Shown piece by piece: positions 5,112 through 63,919 of a stretch of 64,000 bases of DNA. The stretch spans positions 62,001-126,000 of the forward strand of contig NZ_LR732488.1 of assembly GCF_902506425.1 (NCBI RefSeq). Direction: 5' to 3'. The position numbers and the translations under genes are program-made. The stretch is from Novosphingobium sp. 9U (lineage in GTDB: Bacteria; Pseudomonadota; Alphaproteobacteria; Sphingomonadales; Sphingomonadaceae). The notes beneath the pieces are model-generated. The model did no database searches. It saw only the letters and a list, made by a program, of their open reading frames with translations, and had not been told where the DNA came from. Position 1 is the first letter of the stretch, and every line of letters starts with the position of its first letter.

Positions 5112-6914
5112 TTACTGCAGGACCAGGCCCTCGAACTTGCCACTTGCGCGCCACTGCTCCCACATTTCGAAGAACTGAGTGGAAGGCAGGTACCAACCCG
5201 AGCCGATCGCACTGCGCCGGTCCGCCACGTTTCCTTCGGCATTGTAGTAGCCTGGCGTGCAGGCTTCGAGGAACGGCCGTCGCGCCTCCGCCACAGCGGC
5301 GATGGCATCCTGCCATCTATCTTCGGCTTCTGCCGTCGTGTCGACAATACGGACTCCGTTGTCCAAGCAGTGCTTGATGACGAAGGTCAGGTGATCAGCT
5401 TGCTCCTGCAGCATGTGCGGTACGTTGATGGTGACGCCCGTCTGCGTCAGGCCCATGAAGAACATGTTCGGAAAGCCCTGGCTGAAGAGGCCGTGGTACG
5501 TGATGAGCCCCTCGGCCCATTTGTCCGAAAGCTTCACGCCGCCGCGTCCGATTACGTCGTATCCCGCTTGATGGGCCCAGGTGGTTCCAAGTTCGAAGCC
5601 AGTGCAGAAGATCAGGCAATCCAGCTTGTGCTCGACGCCATCGACAACAAGACCTTCGGGGGTGATCCGTTCGATCCCTCCGCTCACATCGACGACCTTG
5701 ACGTGGTCCTGGTCGAATGCCTGGAGATAGTGGTCGCTGAAGCCCGGCCGCTTGCACATCGTACGGTAGTAAGCCTTCAGCAAATCGGCCTTCTTTGGAT
5801 CGTGCACGTACTGATCGACACGCGCGCGGATTTCCTCGTTGTAGCCGAAGTCGGCGATTTCCTGTGCTTGGGCTATACCTTCCGGGGTGCGCTGTTCGGG
5901 CGGTAATGCCATGACTGAGTCGATCAGCCGTCGAAAGAAGCGTGCCCAGCCATCATCGACCGGACAGTCCATGCTTTCGCCATTGGACAAGGCGTTAAAG
6001 GTCTTGATGCGCTGCCGCTGCCAACCTGCCGGCTGCGACTTGTACCACTCGATGTCCGTGGGATTGTTGTCGCGCACGCCCACGGCCGTGGGCGTGCGCT
6101 GGAATACGGTAACTTCCTTTGCCGCCTTGGCGAGCTCGGGAACCACCTGCAGCGCGGTTGTCCCGGTTCCGACGATGGCCACCCGCTTGTCGGCGAGCTT
6201 GTCCAGCCCGCCATCCGAGTTGCCGCCGGTGTAGTCGTAACGCCAGCGCGCGCTGTGGAAGGCGCAGCCGGCGAAATCCTCAATACCGGGAATGCCAGGC
6301 AGCTGCGGCTTGCCGAAGATGCCGCTCTGGGTTGTCACGAACCGCGCTCGCAGCTCGTCCCCGCGCGAGGTCATGACCGTCCAGCGCGCGTCCTGTTCGT
6401 TCCAGGTGACCCCGGTGACCTTGGTCTGGAACAAAGTGCGCTCGTACAGACCGAAGTGGCGCCCGAGCTGCTGGCAGTAGGCGAAGATCTCGCTGCCTCG
6501 CGCGTAACGCTCGGTGGGTATGTAGCCGGTCTCCTCCAAGAACGGGAGGTAAATGTAGGATTCCACATCGCAGCGAAGGCCCGGATAGCGATTCCAATAC
6601 CAAGTGCCTCCGAAGTCGGCGGCTATATCGACCATCAGGAAGTTCTTGATGCCATTTTGCTCAAGCGTCGCCGCAAGCTGGATGCCACCAAACCCGGTGC
6701 CGATGATCAGGACATCGACATCTTCCTGACGCGGATTGCGGGGTTTGATCTCTTCGACATACGGATCTTCGGCGAACTTGGCGAACTTGCCGTCGGTGAA
6801 GGTGTACTGGTCGGTGCCAGCAGGTTTGATGCGCTTCAGCCGCTCGGCCTCATAGCGCTCGCGAATGGCGTCCAGGTCGATCTGGCTCTGATCGCCGGTT
6901 TGATCTTCACTCAT
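5112..6914 (-). CDS. Baeyer-Villiger monooxygenase (FAD, NADPH, type I)
   Basis: Inserts one oxygen atom beside a ketone to give an ester or lactone, using FAD and NADPH. Seen: FAD Rossmann motif GTGFGG (residues 72-77), the type I fingerprint F-x-G-x-x-x-H-x-x-x-W as FAGCAFHSARW (214-224), and a second Rossmann motif GTGTTA (249-254). At 600 residues with an N-terminal extension of about 65, it resembles the longer enzymes acting on large cyclic ketones more than short cyclohexanone monooxygenases. The ATG at 6914 has GGAG upstream; an in-frame TTG lies 12 bases earlier. Last gene of the leftward operon. The substrate is unknown; a ketone left by the 16-24 kb retro-aldol system is one possibility. 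Confidence 0.93.
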   Translation of the reverse strand: MSEDQTGDQSQIDLDAIRERYEAERLKRIKPAGTDQYTFTDGKFAKFAEDPYVEEIKPRNPRQEDVDVLIIGTGFGGIQLAATLEQNGIKNFLMVDIAADFGGTWYWNRYPGLRCDVESYIYLPFLEETGYIPTERYARGSEIFAYCQQLGRHFGLYERTLFQTKVTGVTWNEQDARWTVMTSRGDELRARFVTTQSGIFGKPQLPGIPGIEDFAGCAFHSARWRYDYTGGNSDGGLDKLADKRVAIVGTGTTALQVVPELAKAAKEVTVFQRTPTAVGVRDNNPTDIEWYKSQPAGWQRQRIKTFNALSNGESMDCPVDDGWARFFRRLIDSVMALPPEQRTPEGIAQAQEIADFGYNEEIRARVDQYVHDPKKADLLKAYYRTMCKRPGFSDHYLQAFDQDHVKVVDVSGGIERITPEGLVVDGVEHKLDCLIFCTGFELGTTWAHQAGYDVIGRGGVKLSDKWAEGLITYHGLFSQGFPNMFFMGLTQTGVTINVPHMLQEQADHLTFVIKHCLDNGVRIVDTTAEAEDRWQDAIAAVAEARRPFLEACTPGYYNAEGNVADRRSAIGSGWYLPSTQFFEMWEQWRASGKFEGLVLQ

Positions 6915-35146: not shown

Positions 35147-35833
35147 CTACTCAGTCACCGTGAAATCGTCGAGGTCGCCGCCTTGGATAAGGATGGGGGC
35201 GGTGGTTCTTGCATCCCCAATCAGGTCGAGGAGCCGCTCACGGTGCTTTGGCTCGCTAAGTGCGAGGAGTGTGAACGCGACATTAGTGCGGATCTGGTCG
35301 CGGAATTGTTGGCTGTCCAACTCATCGTGTACCCACAGGGTGATGACGCCGGCGTAGGATAGCATCAATTGGTTCGCGAGATCCTCGCGCACCAGCTTGC
35401 CTTTCAAAGTCGCAGTATTCTCGAAGCCTGCCAGGGCATCATACCAATAGACAAAGGCGCGCTGCATGTACCGAGGGCGCTGTATCGGATCAGACATGCT
35501 TAGCAGGAAACGCTGGAGGGGCCGGTAAAAATTGGCATCGGCCGTGTAGTAGTTCACGGCCGCGTCCGCCGCTTGGAAGACGTGTTCGATAGGGTCCGGG
35601 CCGATCGGCAAGTTGGATCTCGCAGCGCCGACGCGATCGAGGGACTGGTTCAGAAGCGCGTAGAGGACGGTCGATTTCGAGCCGATCAAGTTGTAAGTCG
35701 TCGCGGTGCTGAACCCGGCACGGGCGGCTAAATCCCGCATTGAAAATTCCGTAGAACCTGTTTCACGAATGAGCACTTCAGCCGCGTGCAGGATTGCTAC
35801 TCGTCGCCCTTGCTTTTTCTGCTCCCTCAGCAT
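35147..35833 (-). CDS. TetR family regulator (TetR-1)
   Basis: 228 residues. N-terminal helix-turn-helix (AAEVLIRETGSTEFSMRDLAARAGFSTATTYNLIGSK), then a helical ligand-binding domain. It is a paralog of the TetR at 50.7-51.4 kb: both share FSM.(D/E)L...AG.STAT.YNL..SK..VLYALLN.SLD. It is divergent from an SDR gene; the 240-base gap holds GAACATGTTC, the first of four related sites at 35-45 kb. Autoregulation and control of those promoters are inferred. Confidence 0.92.
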   Translation of the reverse strand: MLREQKKQGRRVAILHAAEVLIRETGSTEFSMRDLAARAGFSTATTYNLIGSKSTVLYALLNQSLDRVGAARSNLPIGPDPIEHVFQAADAAVNYYTADANFYRPLQRFLLSMSDPIQRPRYMQRAFVYWYDALAGFENTATLKGKLVREDLANQLMLSYAGVITLWVHDELDSQQFRDQIRTNVAFTLLALSEPKHRERLLDLIGDARTTAPILIQGGDLDDFTVTE

Positions 35834-38866: not shown

Positions 38867-39169
38867 GGTTATCGGCGTGCCGCAAGGCCCTTTCGCTATT
38901 ACGCTGACCGAATGTAGCGTTGCGTCTAGCTGAGCTGTAGAGCTTTTCCGCGTTCAGCGGAAAGCATGCACCTGAGTCCGCTGGCGCAAAAAGCAGGCCG
39001 CTACATCTATCATTGGACGTCGAAGAGCCCGTACGTCCGGCAGAATAGCACCGGGGATGGCGCCGATGGTGAGCCTCGCGCCGACGATTGGTCCGATGGT
39101 GTGCGCGTTGGCGCGAAATTGCGGCGCCGAGCCATCCTTTCCAAACGGTCAAACTTGAGGGTTGCGCTG

Positions 39170-50715: not shown

Positions 50716-51384
50716 CTAAAAGCCGGCCTCGGCGCGAACGACCTTGCCGAGGCTTTCGGCCAGAGGGGCGAGGCGGCCACGTTCCGCTTCGCCTGGGACC
50801 GCGTAGAGCCGCAAGATGCTGCTGTAGATGATTTGTGCCCTAAAGCCTTCATCGCTGAGCTCCCCCTGAACCCAGAGGTCAAGCGTTCCTAAAAAGTAGA
50901 TCTGGTGGTCTCTTGCGAGCTCCTCCAACCCGACACCCGGCGGCAGCATCCCCGCGTCTCGGAGCCCCGCAAGGTGTTCCATCCAAAAGGCAAGGGCACG
51001 CCCCATGAAGGCAGGGCGGTGAACCGGATCTGACACCCCTAGCAGGTAGCGGTATAGCGGCTTGAAGAGGGCCGTGTCGCTGGTGAAGGTATTGGCAGCG
51101 ATCTCCGAGGCCCGGATAGCATTCTCGACCGGATCGTTCCCCTGCGCGGGCGTTGCGGCAATGACCTTGTCCAGCGAACTGTTCAGCAGCGCGTAGAGCA
51201 CCGAGGCTTTCGACTGCAGCAGGTTGTAGATGGTGGCGGTGCTCAGACCCGCGCTTCTGCTGAGTTCGGCCATTGAAAATTCGGTATGGCCTTGCGCGCG
51301 CACTAGGGCCTCGGCCGAAGCGAGAATTGTATGCTTCTTCTCGTCCTTCTTCTTCTCGCGCCTGATGCTCACAACCAGCCCCAT
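50716..51384 (-). CDS. TetR family regulator (TetR-2)
   Basis: 222 residues from the ATG at 51384 (MGLVVSIRREKKKDEKK). Helix-turn-helix: ALVRAQGHTEFSMAELSRSAGLSTATIYNLLQSK, then a ligand-binding helical domain. Paralog of TetR-1 at 35.1 kb. It lies 109 bases downstream of the flavin monooxygenase gene on the same strand and may be cotranscribed with it from the motif 3 promoter, which would give autoregulation. It is the only regulator near the 53-63 kb sites, so it is the best candidate to bind TAAYTGACCA; this is inference. Confidence 0.9.
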   Translation of the reverse strand: MGLVVSIRREKKKDEKKHTILASAEALVRAQGHTEFSMAELSRSAGLSTATIYNLLQSKASVLYALLNSSLDKVIAATPAQGNDPVENAIRASEIAANTFTSDTALFKPLYRYLLGVSDPVHRPAFMGRALAFWMEHLAGLRDAGMLPPGVGLEELARDHQIYFLGTLDLWVQGELSDEGFRAQIIYSSILRLYAVPGEAERGRLAPLAESLGKVVRAEAGF

Positions 51385-51493: not shown

Positions 51494-53116
51494 TTATCGT
51501 CCCACGACGAGATCCAACAACGCGGCGGTGTCGTCTGGGAGTGCATCGCCACGCCATGCGACGTGTTGGTCGGGACGAACGAGGAGCAGGTTGCGCTCGT
51601 AGATCGGGCGCAAGTCCCGCCGTTCCAGGCGCAGTATGTCGAGCGGTACACCGCGTTCGGTCGCCACTGCTTCCAGTGACGAAGTGTCCGTGCCATCGAG
51701 GACGACAAGAGTAAAGTAGAGCCCTAGCTTATCGTACAGCGACTCCCCATCAGCCAGAAACACATGTGGCAAGCGGGCGCCGGGCCAAGTGGTGGGCTGG
51801 TAGACGATGGGGTCGATCGCAGGTGGGTTGGGCTCGCGCGCCACGATCGGAGATTGATCGTAGCGATAGCCGAACTCGACCCCCCAGCTCTCGTTTTCAG
51901 CGTTGCCGAGCGCTTCGATCTTGCGAGCCAGTTCGGCGCGACGTGCGTCCGCTTCGGGGCCCTGCGCCTCAAGGTCGCCAGCCTCCTGGTAAAGCCCGGA
52001 AATCTGGATCCGCACGCCCATGTGGCGACGCGAGGCCTCAAGGTGCCACCACGCGGTTGGACGGCGCTCGAGGTCGTACGCGGTGAGCAGTTTATCGCCG
52101 CCCCAGCCATGGAGGCGTGCGGCGAGGACCCAAGCCATCGCCGCAGCATCGGCGATTCCGGAGTTCATGCCATAGCCGCCCGTTGGAATATACTGGTGGG
52201 CACTATCGCCGCCGAGCAGCACGTTGCCCTCGCGGTAACGTTCCGCAACCACGAAGTGCGCGAACCAAGGGTTGGCCTGGAGGATCTCATACTCGAACGG
52301 CTTCCCGACCCAGCCTTCCAGCACCTGCTCGGGCGTCATCTCATCCGGCTTCGAGTCAGGCGTAAGCCAGGCCTGCAGAGTGTAGATGTCCTTGTCGTTC
52401 TGCGCGATGATCGTGCCCGAGCCGGATTGGAGATGGTAGACCGGCCCCCAGCGCTGCAGCAGTTCGGCATCGTTGGTGCGGAAGTGTACCATGTAGGCAC
52501 CCGCAACGTTCTCGTCGCCTTGCAGGTTGATACCGAGGCACGCGCGCACGCGGCTACGCCCGCCGTCGCAGCCTGCCAGGTAAGCGCAATTGACTGTCTC
52601 GGCTTCGCCGGTGGCGTCGTTGGCAATCTCGGCGACGACCCCGTCCGGGCCGTTGTCGATGATGCTCTCGAACCGGGTGCCAAACCGGACGTCCACTAGC
52701 GGACTTTCGTCGATCGCCCTCTTGAGAACAGGCTCGATTTCGATTTGGCTCACGCGTAGCGGAGCCTGGGCACCTTGCGAGCCGTCATTGCACGAGCGGA
52801 TGATGTCCGTCTTCTCATTCGCGGAAGGATACGGGAAGCGGTGGAGGTCGTGTCCGACCATGGACGTTACCCACAGGATGTCGAACGCGTTCTCGCGCGG
52901 CACGCCTGCGTCACGCAACTTTTCGTCGAGCCCCAAGCGATGGAACAACTCCATGCTGCGGCCATTCGTCAGGTCCATCTTAGGGTGGCGCGTGGTCGTG
53001 GGATTTCGTTCGACAAGCATCGAGCGAACGCCGTAACGCGCCAGGTTTAGGGCGAGTGCCATCCCAACCGGCCCGCCACCGGCGATGAGAACAGGCACGT
53101 CCTGTGAGTTGCCCAT
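51494..53116 (-). CDS. Class A FAD monooxygenase (aromatic hydroxylase, TfdB/MhpA type)
   Basis: 540 residues. FAD Rossmann motif GGGPVG (13-18), the DG motif CDGGRSRVR, and the second FAD motif GDSAHQYIPTGGYGMNSG (about residue 300), followed by a thioredoxin-like C-terminal domain. It hydroxylates phenols or related rings with NAD(P)H. A degenerate copy of its C-terminal part lies at 48.6-49.0 kb. The motif 3 site is 66 bases upstream. Transcribed with or next to TetR-2. Confidence 0.93.
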   Translation of the reverse strand: MGNSQDVPVLIAGGGPVGMALALNLARYGVRSMLVERNPTTTRHPKMDLTNGRSMELFHRLGLDEKLRDAGVPRENAFDILWVTSMVGHDLHRFPYPSANEKTDIIRSCNDGSQGAQAPLRVSQIEIEPVLKRAIDESPLVDVRFGTRFESIIDNGPDGVVAEIANDATGEAETVNCAYLAGCDGGRSRVRACLGINLQGDENVAGAYMVHFRTNDAELLQRWGPVYHLQSGSGTIIAQNDKDIYTLQAWLTPDSKPDEMTPEQVLEGWVGKPFEYEILQANPWFAHFVVAERYREGNVLLGGDSAHQYIPTGGYGMNSGIADAAAMAWVLAARLHGWGGDKLLTAYDLERRPTAWWHLEASRRHMGVRIQISGLYQEAGDLEAQGPEADARRAELARKIEALGNAENESWGVEFGYRYDQSPIVAREPNPPAIDPIVYQPTTWPGARLPHVFLADGESLYDKLGLYFTLVVLDGTDTSSLEAVATERGVPLDILRLERRDLRPIYERNLLLVRPDQHVAWRGDALPDDTAALLDLVVGR

Positions 53117-53182
53117 GCTAAAATCCGCTCCCTAGAATGTATCGGAACACAGTTGGGCTGCCCGCGCCTATGACGCTTCACA

Positions 53183-53199
53183 GACCATATGGTCAGTTA
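53183..53199. promoter_or_regulatory. Motif 3 site 1 (flavin monooxygenase promoter)
   Basis: Minus strand TAACTGACCATATGGTC, with perfect 12-base palindrome GACCATATGGTC. It lies 66 bases upstream of the monooxygenase start. Five good copies and one weaker copy follow to 63 kb. Confidence 0.68.
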
Positions 53200-53237
53200 A
53201 ATGCGGCAAAGGCGCCGCGGCGTCAAGTCGCCCCGGC

Positions 53238-54005
53238 TCATCGCGCCGTGTATCCCCCGTCGACTGCAACTGCGGCAGCGTTCATAAAGGCCGCTTGGTC
53301 AGAGAGGAGGAAACGGGCGACGTAGGCAACGTCCTCAGGCTCGCCAAAGCGGCCTACCGTGTGGCGCGCGAGCGCAGAGTCATAGTGGGGCCTGAACTCG
53401 GGATTGTTGACCAGGTCGACAATCATCGGTGTGTTGATCATGCCAGGTAGCACACAGTTGACACGTACGCCGGTCTCAATGGCTTCGCTCGCGGCGCCGC
53501 GGGTGATTCCAATTACCGCGTGCTTCGAGGCGACGTACTCCGTAGAGTAGGCCTGCGCGACAACGCCGTTAGCCGAGGCGGTGTTGACGATCGCACCTCT
53601 GCCTGACTTTCGCATGGCAGCGATCTCGTGCTTCACGCACAGAAAGATCCCGACGGCGTTGACGCCATTGACCTTGTGCCAATCATCCAACGTGAGGTCT
53701 TGCGTCAATTTGTTCAACATCTGCACGCCGGCGTTGTTGTAGGCGCCGTCCAGGTGCCCATACAGCTCGACTCCCTTCTCTGTTAGGGCTTTTACCTGGG
53801 CCTCATCACTGACGTCGACCTGCATCGTCCCAACTTCGCCGCCGGCCTGCCTCACCATGTCCGCCGTCTCATCGACGCCGGCCTTGTTCCAGTCGCAGAT
53901 AAGAAGGCGGGCGCCGGCTTCCGCGAAAAGTCGGGCGGCGGCGCGGCCGATGCCGGAGGCGGCACCCGTGATGATGATGCTCTTTCCCTCAAGCATGCGA
54001 GCCAT
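53238..54005 (-). CDS. Short-chain dehydrogenase/reductase
   Basis: 255 residues: TGAASGIG, YNNAGVQM, Ser in NTASANG, YVASKHA, VDGGYT at the C terminus. LLICDWNK after strand 2 indicates preference for NAD(H). It lies upstream of the monooxygenase on the same strand, but a motif 3 site and 121 bases separate the genes, so each probably has its own promoter. A motif 3 site lies 84 bases before its start. Confidence 0.9.
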   Translation of the reverse strand: MARMLEGKSIIITGAASGIGRAAARLFAEAGARLLICDWNKAGVDETADMVRQAGGEVGTMQVDVSDEAQVKALTEKGVELYGHLDGAYNNAGVQMLNKLTQDLTLDDWHKVNGVNAVGIFLCVKHEIAAMRKSGRGAIVNTASANGVVAQAYSTEYVASKHAVIGITRGAASEAIETGVRVNCVLPGMINTPMIVDLVNNPEFRPHYDSALARHTVGRFGEPEDVAYVARFLLSDQAAFMNAAAVAVDGGYTAR

Positions 54006-54089
54006 AACCTTTCCTGCGTCCTCTGGGTCTATCGACTCGCGCGCTCATTTTTTGCCGATCAGCGCCGCAAGTCGCCGCCTTTCTCCGAA

Positions 54090-54106
54090 CAATTGACCAG
54101 AGTGTC
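54090..54106. promoter_or_regulatory. Motif 3 site 2
   Basis: CAATTGACCAGAGTGTC; inverted repeat TTGAC-N6-GTCAA at 54093-54108. It lies 84 bases upstream of the leftward SDR. Confidence 0.65.
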
Positions 54107-54396
54107 AAGAAAACGTCGGCGCTCTGGTGCCGGGCAGACGGGGAGGGGAGCCTTACCCCGTGCCGACTGGGGGCTCAGCAAAGAGGATGCCATGGGCAGA
54201 AACACTGGCTTACCACGGGGAATGATACTCGAAGCGACATATCTATCATCGCGAACGACAGGAGTTGCGCAAAGGACACAGTGCCAGATGATTCTTGACC
54301 ATCCGCATCAAGTGCAACTTTCGAGATGGCTGAGCGGAGGCATTTTCTTCAGCAATGCCAGGTACATAACCCGAAAACGGTCTAGCTGCGAAGAGG

Positions 54397-54413
54397 TAAT
54401 TGACCAGATTGTC
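54397..54413. promoter_or_regulatory. Motif 3 site 3
   Basis: TAATTGACCAGATTGTC; inverted repeat TGAC-N6-GTCA at 54401-54414. It lies upstream of the rightward TonB receptor, 150 bases before its TATAAT-like element, and may also serve the SDR in combination with site 2. Confidence 0.63.
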
Positions 54414-54587
54414 AGGTCGCAGTAGTGCTAGAGATCACAGAAGAGGACCCGGTTGCCTAACGCGACCCGGCAAATGGGAAGAGGTCGAAGCGGACGTCCG
54501 CTGAGCATTGACTTGAGAACGTGGAGCAAGAGGTCGGGGTACAACCAGGCCGTTGCGGTGCTTTATAATCTTAGAGGGGATGGATGG

Positions 54588-56957
54588 ATGAAGAGCGTAT
54601 CGAGATGCCGTGACGTAAGGTTGAGCAAAGTACGGCAGCGCGTCCGGTGCTCACGCATCGTCCTGGCGCTTACTCTAACGGCCAGTTGGACTACTTCGGC
54701 AGCCGCGCAAGATGTTGCACAGAACAACGATCAGGCCGATACTGTTGATAGTCTGCGGAACCTGGACGAGATCGTGGTGACCGCCACCAAGCGTGAGCAA
54801 AACGTCAACGATGTTGGTATTTCGATTACTGCTTTGAGCGCGGAGTCGCTCGCCAAATCAGGCATCACGGACTCCACCGGCATCACGTTCTCTGTACCAA
54901 ATCTTGAGAATGCACCCGTGTTCGGTCCCGGATCGAACACCAACTTTTCCGTGCGCGGCGTTGCTCAAAACGACTATAACGATGGCACGGAATCCCCGAT
55001 CGCCACTTATGTGGACGATGTCTATCTCGTCCCGACGGGAGCCGGCTCCTTTCCGCTATACGACATGCAGCGAGTGGAAGTGCTGCGCGGACCGCAAGGT
55101 ACGCTGTTTGGGCGCAACAGTACCGGCGGCTTGATCCACTTCATATCCGCAAAGCCGACTGATAATTTCTATGCTTCCATCAGCGGCATGTACGGGTCGC
55201 ACGACACGAAAGAGATTACGGGCGTCCTCAACATCCCGATCGTTCAGGATAAGGTCTCACTGCGCATCGCCGGCCAGTACCACGACAACGACGCCTGGAT
55301 GAACAATCTGTCCGGGACCCAGCCGGACAACGGGCAGCTCAAGACCCGTTCGGTCCGCGCGATACTGCGGCTGAAGCCGACCGATACGATTACCGACGAC
55401 ATCAAGTTCTCGTACGACAATGCGCATGGATACACCAATGGGGTGTTCCATCAGGCAGTTGGGATTGACGCGGTCACCGGCAACCAGTTCGTTCTAGGAG
55501 CGAACCAGGACTTCTATGGAACCGGACCGCAGCGCGACTCCTTTGGTCTCGCCAACGTGGAGCCGGGCGAAAGCGACAATGGCTCGGTTCGGCGTCTGAA
55601 TGGGACAAACTCGTATCTCGTCTCCAACACGCTCAATTGGGATCTCGGCGCCACCACAATCACCTCGGTGACCGCGTACAACCATTACCATCGTGATCAA
55701 ATCGAGGATTGCGACGGTCTCCAGCCGTCGATTTGTAACACGCACTACGACAACGTCAGCCGGCAGGTGACGCAGGAGCTGCGCTCTTTCACAGATCTGG
55801 GTGGCGTGCGGATCACCGGCGGTGTTTATTATCTCTGGCACAAAGTAAACTTGCGCAACTTCATCCCGCTTCTGTTGAATGTGCCTTCGGTGACGTTCGC
55901 GCAGCGGGTGGACGGCCAGCAGCGGTCGAGGAGCTACGCCGCATTCGGTAACGTAGAGTGGGACGCAACGCCGACGATCACTGTGATCGGCGGTCTACGC
56001 GTGTCCAAAGACAAGAAACACTTCAATCAGGATTTGCGTTTCGTACTGCCCGCCGATCCAGCGAACCCGTTCCCCAACTACTGGAACACGATGGCGCTGG
56101 ACATTCCGTATGGCGACACGATCGCGCAAAACCTGTTTGACGAGTCCACCGCGGGATCGCTCACCAGGATCAACAAGACGACATGGTCGGCAAAGGGTGA
56201 AGTGGACTTCAAGCCCACCGACAGGACGCTGGTCTACGGATCGATCTCGCGCGGCATCAAGTCGCCGGGCTTCAACAACGGCGTTATTTCCATCGGGCTC
56301 ACGCCGGAGCAGTACCAGTTCAAGACTGAGGTGCTGACTGCTTACGAACTGGGTCTCAAGCAGGAGATCGGGCGGATCGGCAACTTCAACCTGTCCGGTT
56401 TCTACTACGATTACAAGAATTTCGACACGCTCTCGTTTGTCGGCGTAGCCTCGTTCACCGATAACCATGACGCCACTCTCTACGGGATCGAGGGCGATAT
56501 CAGCCTCCGGCCTGTCGAGGGCCTGACGTTGAAGCTCAACGGCGGACTGGTTCACAGCAAGTTGCAGGATGTTGCTAATGCCGCGCTGGTGGTTGCGGAC
56601 CGTGACATGCCGCTAGCGCCCTCCTGGTCGGTGGGTGGGTCCATTCGTTACGAGCTGCCGATAGCGAACGGCGATTACCGCCTTGGGCTCCAGGCGGACG
56701 CGCGGGCGCGCGACTCCTTCTACAACAATCCCGGCAACGATTCTGCGGCTAAAGTCCCGAGCATGGAACTGGTCAATGCACGCGTTGACCTGGCGGACGC
56801 GAACGACCGCTTCGAAGTCGGCGTTTCGGTCAAGAACGTGTTCAACAAGACGTATATCACCTCGCTGTTCCTGCTCCAGGGACTTGGCGGCTATCGGTAC
56901 GGGCAGATCGGCCTGCCACGTTGGGCGTCTCTTGACGTCACCGTTAAGTTCAAATGA
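54588..56957 (+). CDS. TonB-dependent outer-membrane receptor
   Basis: 789 residues from the ATG at 54588 (GAGGGG 8-9 bases upstream); the frame extends to 54453 but those residues lack signal-peptide character. Signal: basic N-region then IVLALTLTASWTTSAAAQ. Plug: EIVVTATKREQNVNDVGISI through VEVLRGPQGTLFGRNST; barrel C terminus LDVTVKFK, with Phe as penultimate residue. It is the most divergent of the four receptors (TATKRE rather than TANKRE). Placed in the third regulon by the motif 3 sites upstream. Confidence 0.92.
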   Translation: MKSVSRCRDVRLSKVRQRVRCSRIVLALTLTASWTTSAAAQDVAQNNDQADTVDSLRNLDEIVVTATKREQNVNDVGISITALSAESLAKSGITDSTGITFSVPNLENAPVFGPGSNTNFSVRGVAQNDYNDGTESPIATYVDDVYLVPTGAGSFPLYDMQRVEVLRGPQGTLFGRNSTGGLIHFISAKPTDNFYASISGMYGSHDTKEITGVLNIPIVQDKVSLRIAGQYHDNDAWMNNLSGTQPDNGQLKTRSVRAILRLKPTDTITDDIKFSYDNAHGYTNGVFHQAVGIDAVTGNQFVLGANQDFYGTGPQRDSFGLANVEPGESDNGSVRRLNGTNSYLVSNTLNWDLGATTITSVTAYNHYHRDQIEDCDGLQPSICNTHYDNVSRQVTQELRSFTDLGGVRITGGVYYLWHKVNLRNFIPLLLNVPSVTFAQRVDGQQRSRSYAAFGNVEWDATPTITVIGGLRVSKDKKHFNQDLRFVLPADPANPFPNYWNTMALDIPYGDTIAQNLFDESTAGSLTRINKTTWSAKGEVDFKPTDRTLVYGSISRGIKSPGFNNGVISIGLTPEQYQFKTEVLTAYELGLKQEIGRIGNFNLSGFYYDYKNFDTLSFVGVASFTDNHDATLYGIEGDISLRPVEGLTLKLNGGLVHSKLQDVANAALVVADRDMPLAPSWSVGGSIRYELPIANGDYRLGLQADARARDSFYNNPGNDSAAKVPSMELVNARVDLADANDRFEVGVSVKNVFNKTYITSLFLLQGLGGYRYGQIGLPRWASLDVTVKFK

Positions 56958-57012
56958 GGGGAGCTGAAAGATAGCGAGAGGCGGTGGTAAGAAGCCGATT
57001 TCTCCGGCCCAC

Positions 57013-57029
57013 CGTACTCTGGTCAACAA
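57013..57029. promoter_or_regulatory. Possible weak motif 3 site before the 57.1 kb TonB receptor
   Basis: Minus strand TTGTTGACCAGAGTACG shares the 11 bases TTGACCAGAGT with the site at 54090, but the second half-site is lost. It lies in the 152-base gap between two receptor genes, 81 bases before the second. It may be chance. Confidence 0.35.
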
Positions 57030-57109
57030 TCGAAACCGCCGCCCACCGTCGGTCACCCATAAGGTGGGCACACATGCAAGCGGTGCAGAATGCCCGCAGG
57101 GAGACGTAA

Positions 57110-59518
57110 ATGCACAGTCAGATCAAAATTTCGCTGCTCGTGGGTGCGAGCCTCTTCGCAGTTCCGGGCGTCGCATCCGCGCAAATTGGACAGGCCGGTC
57201 AGACCGCGCCGGGCGCGCCCGAGGCAAGTGCTGAGCCCGTTCAAACCTCCAGCGTGCAGGAGGGCGACATCATCGTTACCGCCAACAAGCGTGAGCAAAA
57301 GCTCAACGACGTCGGCATCACCGTGGCGGTGCTCGGCGGCGACGAGCTCAAGTCCAAGCAAATCGTGAACCTGCAGGATTTGGCACAGTCGATTCCTAGC
57401 TTGTCGTACACCAACTCGGCGAATGGCACCCCGGTGTACACTTTGCGAGGCATTGGGTTCTACGAGACGTCGCTTGGCGCTTACCCGACAGTGAGCGTCT
57501 ACGTAGACGAAGCCCCGCTCCCGTTTGCTGTGCTGACGCGTCACTCGGCCTACGATCTTGAGCGCGTCGAGGTCCTCAAGGGTCCGCAAGGTACGCTCTT
57601 CGGTCAGAACTCCACCGGAGGTGCGATCAACTACGTCGCGGCTAAGCCAACCAAGGATCTTCAGGCAGGGCTAAACTTAACCTACGGTCGCTTCAATCAG
57701 ATTATCGGCGAGGGCTACGTCAGCGGCCCGCTGAGCGAGAACCTGTCGGCGCGGGTCGCCGGAAGGATCGAGCGGATGGATGGCTGGCAGATCAGCAACA
57801 GCCGCCCGGGCGATCGCAACGGTCGTATCGAAAACTACATGGGCCGTGCGATCGTCAATTTCGAGCCGACCGACACGATCCGCTTCAGCCTCAATGTGAA
57901 CGGTTGGAAGGACAAGAGCGACCCCCAAACGCCGCAGTTCATCGCTCGCAACCTTCAGAACCCGGTTCCAAATCCGGCCTGGGAAGCGGCGCAGCTCTCG
58001 CCGATGAAAGCGCGCGCCTCGGACTGGACACCGGGACTTCCGTTCGCAAACAATCGCCTGTGGCAAACCGCGCTGCGCGGCGATATCGATCTAACCGACA
58101 GCATCACGCTGACCTCGCTGACGTCGTATGTTGATTACAAGCAGAACCAGGCGGACGAAGGCGACGGTATCCCACCACAGAACCTCGACCTGCCGAGTGA
58201 CCGCGGTCGCATCAAGAGCTTCTTCCAGGAGCTGCGTCTTGGGAACGGCGGCCAGGGCTCGTTCCGCTGGGTTGCGGGTGCCAACATCGAGAGCAGCAAG
58301 GTCGACCAGATCGTTGACCTGAACTACTCAGCCTCGTCGTCCAACTCGACGCTTGGCACTCTTGGTTACCCGATCTCCAGCGCCCATTACACCAGCTTCC
58401 AGAAGATGCGGAACTATGCCGGCTTCGTGAACGGCGAACTCGACTTGTCGGACACCCTCACGGTGAAGGGCGGTGTGCGCTACACCAACGCGCGTACGAA
58501 GGCCCAGATCTGCAATCGCGACCTGTCGGGTACCACCACGAACGTCGGGTCGTTCTTCTATGACGTGCTTCTCGGCGGCACCCTCGGGCGCTACGATCCC
58601 AGCTATTGCTTTGCGATCAACGATCAGCCCGAGACGATCGGCGGCGTTGCTCCCGGGATGCCGGGGCAGTACAACGCGACTCTGCACGAGGACAACGTGT
58701 CCTGGAAGGCTGGCGTCGACTACAAGCCGCGCCCCGGCATGCTGATCTACGCTAATGTCGGACGCGGCTACAAGGCCGGCAGCTTCCCCAACGTCTCAGC
58801 CTCGACCTTCGCGCAGTACCTGCCGGTTACGCAAGAATCGGTCATGTCCTATGAGGGCGGCTTCAAGGCGACCCTGCTAGACCGAACCCTGCAGCTGAAC
58901 GGCGCTGGCTTCTACTACGACTATTCCGACAAGCAGCTGCGCTCGAAGATCGACGCCGCACCGTTTGGTATTCTCGACGTGCTGCAGAACATCCCGAAGT
59001 CCACGATCTACGGCTTCGAGCTGGAGGCGACCATGCGCCCGACGCGGGGCTTGGTCGTGAACGCCGCTTACACATACATCCACACGAAAATTGACGAGTT
59101 CAGCGGCATCAATGGCGGCGGCGTGGTTAGTGACTTCGCTGGCTCGGGTATCCCCTTTACACCCAAGCACCAGGTAGCCGTAAGCGCGGATTACAGCTTC
59201 CCCGTGGGCTCGGATCTGCAAGGGTTCGTGGGCGGTACCGTCACGATGCGTTCCGACACGTTCTCCGTCATCGGCGGCGAACAGAACCCACCGGCTGCCG
59301 ATCCAAGCAACTTTGCGGTCTACGGCATCGACGGGTATACACTGGTCGACGCTCGCCTCGGCATCAAGGGCCCGAACGATCGTTGGCAGGTGTCGGTGTT
59401 CGGCAAGAACATCTTCAACGAATACTACTGGAACAACGTCGTTTCCGCGTTCGACACCATCGTGCGCTACACGGGCATGCCCGCGACCTACGGCGTGAGC
59501 GTCGGTTTCAAGTACTGA
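57110..59518 (+). CDS. TonB-dependent outer-membrane receptor
   Basis: 802 residues. Signal ISLLVGASLFAVPGVASAQ; plug DIIVTANKREQKLNDVGITV through VEVLKGPQGTLFGQNST; barrel ending VGFKY. GGGAG precedes the ATG. A close paralog of the receptor at 39.2 kb, including SNSANGTP, SLGAYPTVS.YVDE, QYLPVTQESV and the last strand (IVRY.G.PATYGV). Because receptors 39.2 and 57.1 probably recognise related compounds, the second and third regulons may serve related substrates. Followed by a strong terminator. Confidence 0.93.
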   Translation: MHSQIKISLLVGASLFAVPGVASAQIGQAGQTAPGAPEASAEPVQTSSVQEGDIIVTANKREQKLNDVGITVAVLGGDELKSKQIVNLQDLAQSIPSLSYTNSANGTPVYTLRGIGFYETSLGAYPTVSVYVDEAPLPFAVLTRHSAYDLERVEVLKGPQGTLFGQNSTGGAINYVAAKPTKDLQAGLNLTYGRFNQIIGEGYVSGPLSENLSARVAGRIERMDGWQISNSRPGDRNGRIENYMGRAIVNFEPTDTIRFSLNVNGWKDKSDPQTPQFIARNLQNPVPNPAWEAAQLSPMKARASDWTPGLPFANNRLWQTALRGDIDLTDSITLTSLTSYVDYKQNQADEGDGIPPQNLDLPSDRGRIKSFFQELRLGNGGQGSFRWVAGANIESSKVDQIVDLNYSASSSNSTLGTLGYPISSAHYTSFQKMRNYAGFVNGELDLSDTLTVKGGVRYTNARTKAQICNRDLSGTTTNVGSFFYDVLLGGTLGRYDPSYCFAINDQPETIGGVAPGMPGQYNATLHEDNVSWKAGVDYKPRPGMLIYANVGRGYKAGSFPNVSASTFAQYLPVTQESVMSYEGGFKATLLDRTLQLNGAGFYYDYSDKQLRSKIDAAPFGILDVLQNIPKSTIYGFELEATMRPTRGLVVNAAYTYIHTKIDEFSGINGGGVVSDFAGSGIPFTPKHQVAVSADYSFPVGSDLQGFVGGTVTMRSDTFSVIGGEQNPPAADPSNFAVYGIDGYTLVDARLGIKGPNDRWQVSVFGKNIFNEYYWNNVVSAFDTIVRYTGMPATYGVSVGFKY

Positions 59519-59549
59519 CGGCAACCGGTCAAACTGATCTACCCTGACT

Positions 59550-59580
59550 GGGCGGCGGAGCAATCCGCCGCCCTTTTTTT
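59550..59580 (+). terminator. Strong intrinsic terminator after the TonB receptor
   Basis: GGGCGGCGGA (59550-59559) pairs with TCCGCCGCCC (59564-59573) across a GCAA tetraloop, then seven T residues (59574-59580). 31 bases after the receptor stop. A textbook Rho-independent terminator. Confidence 0.92.
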
Positions 59581-60035
59581 GTTCATCACGTGCAGGGCGA
59601 GTGCTGCTGATTGCCGGGGACTCGGCAAAGCCGTTCGCACTTCGAGCATCGAAACGATGTTCGCGTCCCCTTCAGTCTAAGCAGTGGGGCCGAGAAGTCA
59701 AAAGTGAAGGAAGGTACTGTCTTAGTCCAAACGGGCACGATCCGCCGGCTTGAGGGCGATCAAGGAGGACAGTTGATTTGCGCCTCGCAGAGCAAGTCCT
59801 TTGCGATATGCCGCGCAGATGGGGCGAGCATTCGAGGCGGTTGAGACAGGGTGGAGTAACGCAGCTACAAGCGACGACCCCGCGCTTTGCCGCTGACGAA
59901 ATCATTGCCGTAGCGCGGCCGTGGTCACCTTGGGCTAAGCGCGCCGACCAAGTGAGGATTTTACCAGGAAGTCGGCCCCTCCCTGCTCCAGGGGGGCGAT
60001 GGATAAACTCGACGGTGCCGAGGCTTGGATCTTTC
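59581..60035. other. Non-coding stretch between terminator and KstD-like gene
   Basis: About 455 bases between the receptor terminator and the end of the convergent flavoprotein gene. Only short frames without recognisable motifs; no repeat or RNA gene seen. Confidence 0.5.
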
Positions 60036-61715
60036 TCAAGCAGCCAGCTTGCGTCCCGCACGATAGCCGAACACCAGAGCCGGACCAATGCTTGAGCCGC
60101 CGCCCGGGTAGCGCCCATACATCAGCGAGTTCATGTCAAGTCCGACTGCAAACAGGCCTGGCACCGGCTGTGACTCTGCGTTCAGAACTTGGCCGTCAGG
60201 GGTAGTCTTGAGGCCGAGGGTTGTGCTGCAATCTCCAGGGTGAATCTCGATAGCGTAGAACGGACCGCGATCGAGAGGTGCGAGGTTAGGGTTGGGCGTG
60301 TGGTTGAAGTCGCCCTGCGCATTGTCGTAGGAGTTCGAGCCGCGACCAAAATCGGGGTCTTCCCCTCGCGCCGCGAACTCGTTGAAGCGGGCGATGGTCT
60401 GCTCGAAGTTGGCCTTGGGAATGCCAAGTTTGTGCGCCAGGCCCGGGATCGTCCCAGCCTCGATGAGGTAGCCGTCGCGGACCAGATGCCGATAGGGCAG
60501 AGGCGCTGGCATCGCCACGCCCATGCCATACTTTCTCAGCGCAACCTTGGTGCCGATGAACCAGGCCTTCCGTATGCCAGAGGCGTTCATGTGGCTGACG
60601 AACTCCTGGTAGGGAGAAGCCTCGTTCCCGATGCGGCGCCCTTCGGTGTCGACGATGATCGTGCCGGGCTTGCCGCGATCTGGCCCGAAGTGCGGGAACA
60701 CCGATTTGATGGTGCCGTCCTTTGCCCGATGAGCCGAGCAGGGCGCCCAGATCCCATTGGAGATGTTAGGCTCCGCGAAAACGCCGCCGGCGCCTTGCCC
60801 CATGCGGATCCCATCGCCCACGTTCTCCGCTGGCTGCGCCGACAGATGGTCTTCCGCCAGTGGAATGTACTTGGCGCGCATCTCGAGGTTTGCGCCAAAG
60901 CCACCACTGGCGAGCACCACGCCGTTGCGCACGCCTATGGTACGCTGCTGGCCACCGATCTCGAGCACGATGCCAACCACGCGGCCGTCGCTCTCGTCCA
61001 GGCGGACCGCAGGTGTGTCCCGGCGCAGCGTGACGCCCGCATCGAGCGCAGTGCGCATCAGGCGTCCCACGAGGGCATTGCCGTGTGCCATGTGCGTACC
61101 CTTGCCGTAGGTGACTACGTCGCGCACGAAGCCGGCCATGCGCTTGGCGCTGAACCGGAAGCCTTCCCACGTCCGGAAGGCGGAGGTCAGCTTTGGTACG
61201 TGCTGCATGTCGGTCTGGAAAGATCCGAACGCGACATAGCCGGGCAGCGGATTGCGCACATGGCGAATGTAGTCGCCCAGCTCACGGCCATTGAAAGCTT
61301 CGGCGATGATAGTCCGCGCGGCCTTGGCGCCGGGTTCGCCCGGATGATAGTCCGGTAGCAGCACGGGGTAGAACCGCACCTTCGTTTTTTCGTCCATGAA
61401 CTTAAGCATCTCTGGGCCGGTTTCGACGAAGGCCTCGACGAGATCTGTGTCGTAGCTGTTGCCCAGCGTGGCGCGCAGATAAGTGTACGCTTCCTCGGGC
61501 GTGTCGTGCTGGCCAACGCTGGCCATATACGGGTTGTTGGGGATCCAGGCGCCACCGCTGGAGAAGGCGGTCGTCCCGCCGAAGAGTTCCGCCTTTTCCG
61601 CGACGAGCACCTTCAATCCCTGCTTAGCGGCGACTACCGCGGCGGTCAGACCAGCAACGCCGGATCCCACCACCACGACATCGTACTCGGCTTCAACGGC
61701 AGGTTGCTTGCTCAT
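60036..61715 (-). CDS. 3-Ketosteroid-dehydrogenase-like FAD flavoprotein
   Basis: 559 residues of the fumarate reductase/KstD flavoprotein family. N-terminal dinucleotide motif GSGVAGLTAAVVAAKQG (17-33), KAELFGGTTAFSSGGAWIPN (41-60), and C-terminal YPGGGSSIGPALVFGYRAG, which resembles the end of 3-ketosteroid delta-1- and delta-4-dehydrogenases. No secretion signal or haem motif, so a cytoplasmic dehydrogenase rather than fumarate reductase. It would desaturate a cyclic ketone. A motif 3 site lies 108 bases upstream. Steroid substrate is suggested by family only. Confidence 0.85.
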   Translation of the reverse strand: MSKQPAVEAEYDVVVVGSGVAGLTAAVVAAKQGLKVLVAEKAELFGGTTAFSSGGAWIPNNPYMASVGQHDTPEEAYTYLRATLGNSYDTDLVEAFVETGPEMLKFMDEKTKVRFYPVLLPDYHPGEPGAKAARTIIAEAFNGRELGDYIRHVRNPLPGYVAFGSFQTDMQHVPKLTSAFRTWEGFRFSAKRMAGFVRDVVTYGKGTHMAHGNALVGRLMRTALDAGVTLRRDTPAVRLDESDGRVVGIVLEIGGQQRTIGVRNGVVLASGGFGANLEMRAKYIPLAEDHLSAQPAENVGDGIRMGQGAGGVFAEPNISNGIWAPCSAHRAKDGTIKSVFPHFGPDRGKPGTIIVDTEGRRIGNEASPYQEFVSHMNASGIRKAWFIGTKVALRKYGMGVAMPAPLPYRHLVRDGYLIEAGTIPGLAHKLGIPKANFEQTIARFNEFAARGEDPDFGRGSNSYDNAQGDFNHTPNPNLAPLDRGPFYAIEIHPGDCSTTLGLKTTPDGQVLNAESQPVPGLFAVGLDMNSLMYGRYPGGGSSIGPALVFGYRAGRKLAA

Positions 61716-61822
61716 TCTCAGTTCCCGTCAGATGCCGTCGGTTGCGCACAAGGGGGCGATCGCTATGCACTTTGCGCAATCGCTTTCTCGCACCCTCTAT
61801 CATGCTCTTGGCGGCTGTTATG

Positions 61823-61839
61823 GTCCAAATGGTCAGTTA
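61823..61839. promoter_or_regulatory. Motif 3 site 4 (KstD-like promoter)
   Basis: Minus strand TAACTGACCATTTGGAC, identical to site 1 over the first 11 bases. 108 bases upstream of the KstD-like start. Confidence 0.66.
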
Positions 61840-61965
61840 CATCCGACGGCTTGGCGGCCAAGTCAAGTCGGCAACGCACAGCCCGCGAGATGAGCACTAT
61901 TCAGAGTATCGCGGGCTGGCCCTGCGTTTGGGCAAGGACCAATCATCCGGAGGTTTGAGAATCGT

Positions 61966-61982
61966 AATTGACCAGAAGGTCT
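61966..61982. promoter_or_regulatory. Motif 3 site 5 (SnoaL-EthD promoter)
   Basis: TAATTGACCAGAAGGTC, matching site 3 in 15 of 17 positions. 60 bases upstream of the SnoaL-like start. Confidence 0.66.
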
Positions 61983-62041
61983 GTTTGCTCCACTCAATGG
62001 GCGAGAGCCGCGACGACGGCCGAGACAGTGGAGAGCAGATA

Positions 62042-62440
62042 ATGGACATTGAGGCGCATGCACTGGCCGACAAGCTTGGCCAAGCCATTCGTGAGCGCAA
62101 CCCTGACCTGCTGCGCCAGATCTACGCAGACGATATCCGCGTTTGGCACGGCGCCACGGGCAGTGCGATGGGCAAGGACGAGAATATCGGAATGCTGACG
62201 GCCGTGTTCGCAATCTCGTCCGGGCTCGAGTATACCGACGTACGGCGTCATGACATCGAGCAGGGCTTGGTCCAGCAGCACACGCTCGTCGGAACATTTG
62301 ACGACGGCGCAAACATGCCGGGGCTCAATGCCTGCATGGTGATCAAGGTTGCAGGCGGAAAGATCGCCAGCATCGACGAGTACTTCGATGCTCAGACGTT
62401 CGCCCCAGTCTGGGCGCGCCTCGCGGCCCAGCCCGCGTAA
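62042..62440 (+). CDS. SnoaL/NTF2-like protein
   Basis: 132 residues: helical DIEAHALADKLGQAIRERNPDLLRQIYADDIRVWHG (the LL..(I/L)Y.DD(I/V)..WHG pattern of the family) followed by strands ALNACMVIKVAGGKIASIDEYFDAQTFAPVW. GGAGAG precedes the ATG at 62042. NTF2-like fold proteins include ketosteroid isomerase; next to a KstD-like gene and in the same regulon a ketone isomerase role is attractive but not shown. Operon partner of the following EthD-like gene (22 bases). Confidence 0.87.
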   Translation: MDIEAHALADKLGQAIRERNPDLLRQIYADDIRVWHGATGSAMGKDENIGMLTAVFAISSGLEYTDVRRHDIEQGLVQQHTLVGTFDDGANMPGLNACMVIKVAGGKIASIDEYFDAQTFAPVWARLAAQPA

Positions 62441-62462
62441 CGCAACCAGAGGGGATCAAGCA

Positions 62463-62843
62463 ATGGCGAAATATGTTCTGCTGGCGATGACCAACCCAGT
62501 CGAGGGTCGGACTGACGAGTACAACGCCTGGTACGACAACACAGCGTATCCCACTTACAAGTCTATTCCTGGTCTAACCCCGTTAGGTCGCTTCAAGGCG
62601 GTTGAACTTGAACCGATGTTCCCATTCCAAATGGAGAACCGCTTCAACTATCTCTCGATGTATTACTTCGAAACAGACGATGTGGTGGCGTTCATGCAGA
62701 GCGTCAAGGACGCGTTCGGTCGCCATCCGGAATACTCTCTCTCCGAAGATATCGATAAATCGGTGTTCTTCGAGCCGGTCTACGTGGCGATGAGCGACGT
62801 AAACTTCGCCCCGATCGACCGCTATGAAGAGTTGAAGTGCTGA
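62463..62843 (+). CDS. EthD-like/dimeric alpha-beta barrel protein
   Basis: 126 residues: MAKYVLLAMTNPVEGRTDEYNAWYDNTAYPTY is the strand plus helix start of this fold (N/D..WYD..H-type position), followed by YLSMYYFETDDVVAFMQSVKDAF. AGAGGGG precedes the ATG. Third EthD-type gene of the window. It is cotranscribed with the SnoaL-like gene. Confidence 0.84.
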   Translation: MAKYVLLAMTNPVEGRTDEYNAWYDNTAYPTYKSIPGLTPLGRFKAVELEPMFPFQMENRFNYLSMYYFETDDVVAFMQSVKDAFGRHPEYSLSEDIDKSVFFEPVYVAMSDVNFAPIDRYEELKC

Positions 62844-62987
62844 TTGGCCGCACTTGTCCCTCCGTGCGGGGTTGGGGGGCGGCGACCGGACGCGCTCAGG
62901 CGCTCACAGCTAGCCAACCCTGGCCCATCCGCCGCGCGGGCGTTTTCGTCGCCGCTGAGCAAGGTTTTGGTCTGACTCGGCCTTTCA

Positions 62988-63004
62988 GATTGTATGGTCA
63001 GCTA
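62988..63004. promoter_or_regulatory. Motif 3 site 6 (SDR promoter)
   Basis: Minus strand TAGCTGACCATACAATC; first half-site conserved (CTGACCAT), second half weaker. 112 bases upstream of the last SDR. Confidence 0.58.
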
Positions 63005-63115: not shown

Positions 63116-63919
63116 ATGTTTGCCGAGTGTTTCGCCGGACGGGTGGCGATCATAACGGGTGGCGCTTCTGGAATTGGAGCGGCTACAGCGCGCTTGCTCG
63201 TTGCAGGGGGAGGCATGGTGATGCTCGCCGGCTTGGATAAAGCCAAGGGCGACGCCTTTGCCGCCGAACTGGGCCCCTCGGCCAGCTACCAGCGCTGCGA
63301 CGTGCAATTCGCCGACCAGATTGAAGCTCTCGTTAAGATGACGGTGGCGACTTACGGTCGGGTCGACATGCTGGTCAACAATGCCGGCATGGGTGGCATG
63401 GGATCGACCACCACGACCGAGCCCGAGCTCTGGCGTCAAGTCATCGAGGTCGATCTGTCATCGGTCTATCACGCCTGTCGCGCCGCAATCCCGCACATGC
63501 GCGCCAGCGGCGGTGGAGTGATCGTCAATAACGCGTCGATCTCCGGCATGCGTGGCGACTATGGCATGGCGTCATATAACGCGGCCAAGGGCGCGGTGGT
63601 GAACTACACGCGCAGTCTTGCGCTGGACCACGCACGCGAAGGCATCCGTGCCAATGTGGTTTGTCCCTGCGGCATCGACACGCCGTTGTTGGCTGGGGTT
63701 GCAGGCGTGCCCGGGCTACTCGAAGGCTTCTTGAGAGCGACGCCGCTCGGGAGACTGGGACAGTCGCAAGAGGTGGCGAATGTCATCGCGTTCCTGCTCT
63801 CGGACGCAGCCTCCTACGTGACTGGCGCCGTTATCCCGGTGGACGGCGGTGTGACCGCCGCCACCGGGTTACCCAACATGAACGAGTACATGGCGCGCCT
63901 GAAGGAAACGTACGATTAG
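63116..63919 (+). CDS. Short-chain dehydrogenase/reductase
   Basis: 267 residues: TGGASGIG, VNNAGMGG, Ser in NNASISG, YNAAKGA as Y-x-x-x-K, VDGGVTAATG near the C terminus. GGGAGAG precedes the ATG. Sixth intact SDR of the window, alone after a motif 3 site. The region after its stop (63920-64000) holds no supported gene start. Confidence 0.9.
   Translation: MFAECFAGRVAIITGGASGIGAATARLLVAGGGMVMLAGLDKAKGDAFAAELGPSASYQRCDVQFADQIEALVKMTVATYGRVDMLVNNAGMGGMGSTTTTEPELWRQVIEVDLSSVYHACRAAIPHMRASGGGVIVNNASISGMRGDYGMASYNAAKGAVVNYTRSLALDHAREGIRANVVCPCGIDTPLLAGVAGVPGLLEGFLRATPLGRLGQSQEVANVIAFLLSDAASYVTGAVIPVDGGVTAATGLPNMNEYMARLKETYD

Follow-up and report, generated by a model that had tools for sequence, protein, structure and literature searches.

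The stretch of Novosphingobium sp. 9U DNA analysed here, referred to as the window, comprises 64,000 nucleotides (contig NZ_LR732488.1; C20:62001-126000 of genome G000, 4.64 Mb), and its own numbering is used throughout. Toward its right-hand end lies a putative catabolic gene cluster in which a family of palindromic sequences recurs. Judged from sequence comparison, these dyads are very probably the operators of TetR-3, a RutR-like member of the TetR family that would govern a regulon for the degradation of an aromatic or alicyclic ring compound. By analogy with characterised relatives, TetR-3 is probably a repressor that also controls its own synthesis.

A preliminary description of the window had listed six related sequences in this region, and each was found at its coordinate to within one base (the plus-strand copy given as 61966 begins at 61965). 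When the flanking bases are included, the site proves to be a 22-bp dyad approximating TRAYTGACCANNTGGTCARTYA, in which GACC and GGTC are separated by four bases and the outer arms are A+T-rich. The pattern as first drawn up, with at most three mismatches, has 9 matches in the 64-kb window, whereas 100 shuffled versions averaged 1.91 and never exceeded 6, which bears out an excess over chance. A further site suggested near 57013 has to be dropped, as no dyad is present there and the best nearby score is -6.3. The argument that the sites are oriented toward a gene also falls, since a dyad has no direction; indeed, the minus-strand copy at 62988, as written, faces the end of the EthD-like gene. 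The sites at 61818 and 61965 fall within an overlong frame of the crude gene list, and they were placed in the divergent gap between the KstD-like and SnoaL-like genes because the latter likely starts at 62042.

Orthologs of TetR-3 were gathered from 249 genomes of the family and from named genomes, which supplied 18 loci, all but one at or above 44% identity. The loci from named genomes include Sphingosinicella soli, Novosphingobium resinovorum, N. aquimarinum, N. colocasiae, Panacagrimonas perspica, and Nevskia and Acetobacteraceae assemblies; locus L113, at 24% identity, was excluded from the 17 ortholog loci. A palindrome-constrained expectation-maximisation motif search yielded A+T-rich sequence only and was replaced by dyad counting. 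In this seedless count of five-base arms with spacers of 0 to 16, applied to the intergenic parts of 20 ortholog loci with the window genome excluded, TGACC-N4-GGTCA ranked first, with 7 occurrences in 5 loci against 0.19 expected and a score of 18.4 against a maximum of 10.9 in 10 shuffled sets. The dyads ranked third and fourth, ACCAT/ATGGT and GACCA-N2-TGGTC, are parts of the same word. The second-ranked dyad, ATTGC-N12-GCAAT (15.8), was rejected as an interspersed inverted repeat found only in the N. resinovorum locus L098, where its copies lie at 6274, 6321, 10753, 10800, 17695 and 17742. GTTCG-N7-CGAAC (9.2) was rejected as scoring under the shuffled maximum; the fifth dyad, ATCGA-N11-TCGAT, exceeds that maximum at 12.5, with 6 copies in L112, G189, L066+L067 and L064+L065.

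A matrix was then available from other genomes alone. It rests on 64 sites at TetR-3 ortholog loci and was started from a typed consensus, TGACCATATGGTCA, chosen after the seedless count. This matrix recovers all six named sites, the one at 54090 weakly (Table 1). At 15 bits or more it finds 8 sites in the analysed 224 kb of contig C20, where 0.62 would be expected, and 7 of the 8 fall between 53 and 69 kb, where the expectation is 0.044. The sites at 65679, 53178, 61818, 61965, 54397 and 68601 are the top six of the 224 kb, followed by 39134 in seventh, 62983 in eighth and 54090 in twelfth place. Two of these lie past the window end: 65679 (25.4 bits) in the promoter of a gene for a VOC-fold protein, and 68601 (17.7 bits) in the gap between a fumarylacetoacetate-hydrolase-family (FAH) gene and a short-chain dehydrogenase/reductase (SDR) gene. 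The proposal of the preliminary description that a single operator family unites the genes for the monooxygenase, the SDRs, the TonB receptor, the KstD-like flavoprotein and the SnoaL/EthD proteins in a local regulon is supported, and the strong sites are concentrated there. The site at 54090 is less secure, for about 4.5 sites of at least 11 bits are expected by chance in 224 kb; it reaches 24.9 bits with a matrix derived from the window, which itself includes it. For the candidate at 39134, which is flanked by genes with Pfam SDR and TonB receptor matches and lies close to TetR-1, about 0.17 sites of at least 17 bits are expected in the same 224 kb.

A genome scan gave 34 matches to the TetR_N helix-turn-helix, six of them on C20, and among the latter are TetR-1 at 35.7 kb, TetR-2 at 51.2 kb and TetR-3 at 65.1 kb. 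TetR-2 had been described as the only local regulator, a statement that fails once the sequence just past the window end, where TetR-3 begins, is included. The TetR_N match of TetR-3 scores 49.5 bits against a Pfam cut-off of 24, and its C-terminal ligand domain matches TetR_C_29 (34 bits, cut-off 26.2) and TetR_C_3 (29.1 bits, cut-off 25). Among solved relatives RutR is the best (E 6e-14, with residues 52-238 of 253 aligned), and the best NCBIfam model for TetR-3 is also RutR (TIGR03613), at 69.3 bits; this is far under the cut-off of 368, so that TetR-3 is RutR-like but not RutR. Within the helix-turn-helix, TetR-3 is identical to RutR at 12 of 28 positions and TetR-2 at 5 of 28, and the recognition helix is nearly invariant across 8 aligned TetR-3 orthologs. 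The gene closes a run, SDR2-SDR3-TetR-3, with starts at 63116, 64018 and 64872, that begins downstream of the site at 62983, and we presume that this site serves autoregulation of TetR-3.

The putative operators themselves resemble that of RutR, the TetR-family regulator of pyrimidine utilisation in E. coli. The RutR consensus is TTGACCAnnTGGTCAA, letters that did not turn up in the literature searched. Run over a 4.5-kb region surrounding E. coli rutR, the ortholog-derived TetR-3 matrix has its best match, at 16.5 bits, in the rutA-rutR gap and its next at 12.1, and the two proteins would thus share a related type of operator dyad. The RutR operator is described as a palindrome of about 16 bp (PMC10891134). 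A literature search for RutR together with TTGACCANNTGGTCAA or TTGACCA gave no match. The two systems differ in their gene neighbours: those annotated for TetR-3 are of ring-catabolism type (SDR, VOC, SnoaL, FAH-family and beta-keto acid cleavage enzyme, BKACE) and include no rut genes; no search for rut genes was made elsewhere in the genome.

Comparison across genomes links the dyad both to TetR-3 and to the monooxygenase. Built from the six window sites, a matrix detects 34 sites of at least 14 bits in the 17 TetR-3 ortholog loci (276,774 bases), two pairs of which share one genome each (L100/L106 and L105/L107), while its Markov null gives 2 sites in 553,548 bases (0.36 per 100 kb). Seventeen control loci (333,103 bases) contain 5 such sites, a count that is raised because four of them, L039-L042, had been fetched for their pattern hits; L077-L083 flank distant TetR relatives. 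The monooxygenase (at least 59% identity) and TetR-3 (at least 50%) are present in exactly the same 7 of the 249 genomes. Among the monooxygenase orthologs of at least 59% outside the window genome, 7 of 8 promoters carry a site of at least 12.5 bits with the window matrix and the eighth reaches 10.0, compared with 0.5% of 600 random pieces reaching 12.5 bits. In the fragmented assembly G070 the monooxygenase gene is on a different contig from two TetR-3 copies and still carries a site, and in G088 a second monooxygenase gene (51%), some 1.8 Mb from TetR-3, has a near-perfect dyad about 0.9 kb upstream. Thus, across the Sphingomonadaceae and a few more distant bacteria, the dyad is most consistent before the monooxygenase gene. 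At one of the more distant loci, L112, a 24.9-bit site lies about 160 bp before TetR-3.

Several observations weigh against assigning the sites to TetR-3, or against extending the window's arrangement to other genomes. The comparison of 34 with 5 sites includes matches inside genes, and at L106 and L111, two of the 17 ortholog loci, no site reaches 12.5 bits. Enrichment near TetR-3 is partly built in, since the loci were chosen by TetR-3, the search from the monooxygenase being the converse test; there, the 0.5% background may be too low for promoters because the random pieces are mostly coding. Two more divergent monooxygenase homologs also fit poorly: no site lies within 300 bp of that of G189 (48%), and that of G076 (50%), which has a TetR gene beside it, carries a 17.5-bit site in a genome with no TetR-3 match at E <= 1e-20. 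Sites of at least 12.5 bits were found within 300 bp before 5/16 TetR-3 orthologs, 1/10 VOC, 3/12 FAH, 1/7 SDR5, 0/3 SDR4, 1/3 KstD-like, 1/3 BKACE, 0/2 SnoaL, 0/1 EthD and 1/8 Rieske genes. This survey excluded orthologs below set identity limits (for TetR-3 those under 49%, thus L109, L111 and L112), reported the 48-50% monooxygenase homologs of G189, L122 and L123 apart, and found sites in G189 for TetR-3 and VOC only. As sites away from the monooxygenase are much less conserved, neither self-control nor the full gene list can be taken as general.

The sequence data support the sites themselves, their match to the regions around TetR-3 orthologs and the likeness of TetR-3 to RutR; we infer binding by TetR-3, repression rather than activation, self-control, and the kind of ligand and substrate, as follows. 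If it behaves like characterised TetR repressors, TetR-3 would occupy each operator as a dimer when substrate is lacking and would shut off the genes for the monooxygenase, the SDRs, the TonB receptor, the KstD-like, SnoaL/EthD and VOC proteins and the FAH-family protein and, through the site at 62988, its own gene. A ring-type substrate or intermediate, perhaps imported by the TonB receptor, would then bind the C-terminal domain of TetR-3 and release it from the operators.

The preliminary description had instead suggested that TetR-2, possibly cotranscribed with the monooxygenase, binds the sites. The TetR-2 gene does lie directly downstream of the monooxygenase gene, with a strong site upstream of the pair, and homologs at 40-45% identity (best per genome) occur in three motif-bearing genomes, G088, G070 and G152. 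However, TetR-2 has no match at E <= 1e-10 in G150, G094, G177 or G189, of which the first two have strong sites before the monooxygenase, the third a weak one and the last none within 300 bp. Its best match outside its own genome is 45% identical (E <= 1e-38, 249 genomes), which is about as close as TetR-1 from the same window (43%), and its nearest solved sequence, 3ang, is a different TetR-family repressor. It is the orthologs of TetR-3 that co-occur with the motif. Binding by TetR-2 is therefore very unlikely, and TetR-2 is probably not the regulator of these sites. TetR-1 (35147-35833) and TetR-2 (50716-51381) are paralogs, 43% identical, and each may own one of the other operator families noted in the preliminary description.

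It is highly unlikely that a regulator of another type, an IclR protein or a different TetR protein, shares or owns the sites. The genome does encode the 34 TetR_N matches mentioned above, six of them on C20, a 19.1-bit dyad (L077) lies near a 35% TetR relative in G207, and dyads of the TGRAACA type are described for IclR proteins (PMC13273656). Against this, the dyad is enriched around TetR-3 orthologs, and no IclR helix-turn-helix was found on C20 compared with 14 elsewhere in the genome (150 of 203 candidates scored).

A global regulator acting at sites throughout the genome is very improbable. In its favour, the strict pattern with at most two mismatches has 124 matches in the whole genome compared with 71 for a reversed control, and strong sites occur elsewhere, at 21.2 bits on C36 and at 19.9 bits on C1, the latter beside ribosomal-protein-like frames. 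All 3 exact matches to the strict pattern lie inside the window, however, as do 5 of the 10 with at most one mismatch, a sixth of which is also on C20, and the loose core dyad with one mismatch, at 133 matches against 117 for its control, is barely above it. Model R1, a sequence model of 43 ortholog sites with which 150 of 284 first-look candidates were scored, has its best genome match in the 53178 site and at E <= 10 lists only C20:115181 (window 53181) and C36:346587; the result is weak evidence, given that number of candidates scored and the absence of the other strong window sites from the list. Strong sites are concentrated at the cluster, which makes a global regulator unlikely. The C36 dyad (C36:346583-346604, L040:10583) is near frames read from the sequence as luciferase-type monooxygenase-like and LuxR-like and is a possible further target; that on C1 (L041:9636) lies between the ribosomal-protein-like frames and a regulator-like frame and may be chance or a further target.

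There is next to no chance that the words are accidental or are promoter elements rather than operators: TTGACC resembles a -35 element, and the second hexamer of one weak minus-strand promoter-like match lies within the 62983 site, but the dyad symmetry, the recurrence of the word in several genera and its excess over shuffled sequence all oppose this, and none of 8 matches in a promoter scan of 53.0-63.2 kb has its first hexamer on the motif.

With TetR-3 as the preferred regulator, three further systems may be compared. EdcR of Caenibius tardaugens, a TetR repressor of estradiol degradation that is reportedly relieved by the substrate, resembles TetR-3 in being a sphingomonad regulator of TetR type encoded next to catabolic genes, yet its proposed operator, TnnCnnTACnAnTnGTAnnGnnA, differs from TGACC-N4-GGTCA in a comparison by eye of the operators only (PMC8700777). 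KstR and KstR2 repress cholesterol degradation. They are described as TetR-like repressors of a steroid catabolic regulon (PMC8700777); TetR-3 scores 27.8 bits against the KstR model, whose NCBIfam cut-off is 280. PheR of Sphingobium sp. SHPJ-2 is a repressor linking the uptake of an aromatic compound to its breakdown, but, unlike TetR-3, it is discussed within the IclR family and has the core motif GCAACG (PMC13273656). The regulon described here is not reported in the literature searched, which included the available parts of PMC10891134, PMC5343134, PMC6245113, PMC8700777, PMC13273656 and PMC8547461.

Table 1. Genes and dyads of the putative TetR-3 regulon (window numbering unless stated; bits from the ortholog-derived matrix)
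Feature	Position	Strand	Details
FAD-dependent aromatic-ring monooxygenase, core regulon member	51494..53116	-	PF01494, PF21274
TetR-2	50716..51381	-	start chosen here; TetR_N at cut-off, 24 bits
SDR1	53238..54005	-	PF13561
TonB-dependent receptor 1	54453..56957	+	PF00593, PF07715; true start may be later
KstD-like flavoprotein	60036..61715	-	PF00890
SnoaL-like protein	62042..62440	+	PF12680 on longer frame; start chosen here
EthD-like protein (name from the preliminary description)	62463..62843	+	67% ortholog in G150
SDR2, first gene of run ending in TetR-3	63116..63919	+	PF13561
TetR-3	G000:C20:126872-127630	+	start about 0.9 kb beyond window end; 253 residues from first ATG
Putative operator dyad (first given as 53183)	53178..53199		TCACAGACCATATGGTCAGTTA; 23.9 bits; upstream of flavin monooxygenase-TetR-2 pair
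Weak operator-like site	54090..54111		CAATTGACCAGAGTGTCAAGAA; 11.2 bits; between SDR1 and TonB receptor gene
Putative operator	54397..54418		TAATTGACCAGATTGTCAGGTC; 18.2 bits; upstream of first TonB receptor gene
Putative operator near KstD-like gene (first given as 61823)	61818..61839		TTATGGTCCAAATGGTCAGTTA; 23.8 bits; KstD/SnoaL divergent gap
Putative operator near SnoaL-EthD genes	61965..61986		TAATTGACCAGAAGGTCTGTTT; 20.4 bits; KstD/SnoaL divergent gap
Putative operator (first given as 62988)	62983..63004		TTTCAGATTGTATGGTCAGCTA; 15.6 bits; upstream of SDR2-SDR3-TetR-3
Candidate further operator	39134..39155		ATCCTTTCCAAACGGTCAAACT; 17.5 bits; between SDR gene and another TonB receptor gene

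The gene set suggests hydroxylation, opening and hydrolysis of an aromatic or alicyclic ring substrate, a reading that rests on the FAD ring monooxygenase, VOC, FAH-family, SDR and KstD-like proteins and the TonB receptor taken together. The nearest solved sequence to the monooxygenase is RebC, with 2,4-dichlorophenol 6-monooxygenase also among the best. The VOC-fold protein of the regulon has weak similarity to extradiol dioxygenases, and an FAH-family protein is identified among the regulon genes by profile matches. A nearby BKACE gene is conserved in G150, G094 and G177. For the EthD-like protein, neither Pfam nor NCBIfam gave a match at E <= 0.001. The KstD-like protein scores 468 bits against a model for 4-oxocyclohex-2-ene-1-carboxylate 5-dehydrogenase and 426 against the best ketosteroid dehydrogenase model, both below cut-off, as is its 569 bits against a general FAD-oxidoreductase model. 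It thus favours alicyclic ketone dehydrogenase over ketosteroid models, yet among solved relatives a 3-oxosteroid dehydrogenase is the nearest. A steroid is not favoured over other ring substrates.

The system is well supported yet ordinary in kind: a catabolic regulon of TetR type that probably controls itself and has an operator like that of RutR. We lean toward the broader view that a RutR-like branch of TetR repressors kept a RutR-type operator code and was recruited to a mobile ring-degradation regulon across the Sphingomonadaceae, comprising the monooxygenase, VOC protein, FAH-family hydrolase, SDRs and TonB receptor. On this view the regulator, together with part of the gene set, extends to Nevskia, Panacagrimonas and further distant records, and the operators are spread over separate groups of genes, in some cases, as in G088, at a great distance from the regulator gene. 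A candidate regulator and operator can now be named for a catabolic cluster that occurs in several genera. The regulon would define the genes of one pathway and so help to find its substrate, for which TetR-3 and its operator could act as a sensor. The position of TetR-3 also illustrates how the likely regulator can be missed when it lies just past the edge of the stretch under study.

Four of the TetR-3 orthologs (L108, L109, L111 and L112; 44-49% identity) come from Nevskia, Panacagrimonas and another gammaproteobacterial record, and 3 of the 4 loci have a dyad of at least 12.5 bits; transfer between classes is possible. One Caenibius assembly and N. colocasiae each carry two TetR-3 copies (L100/L106 and L105/L107). 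Within the window, a strong intrinsic terminator-like hairpin (59550-59573) directly follows the second TonB receptor gene.

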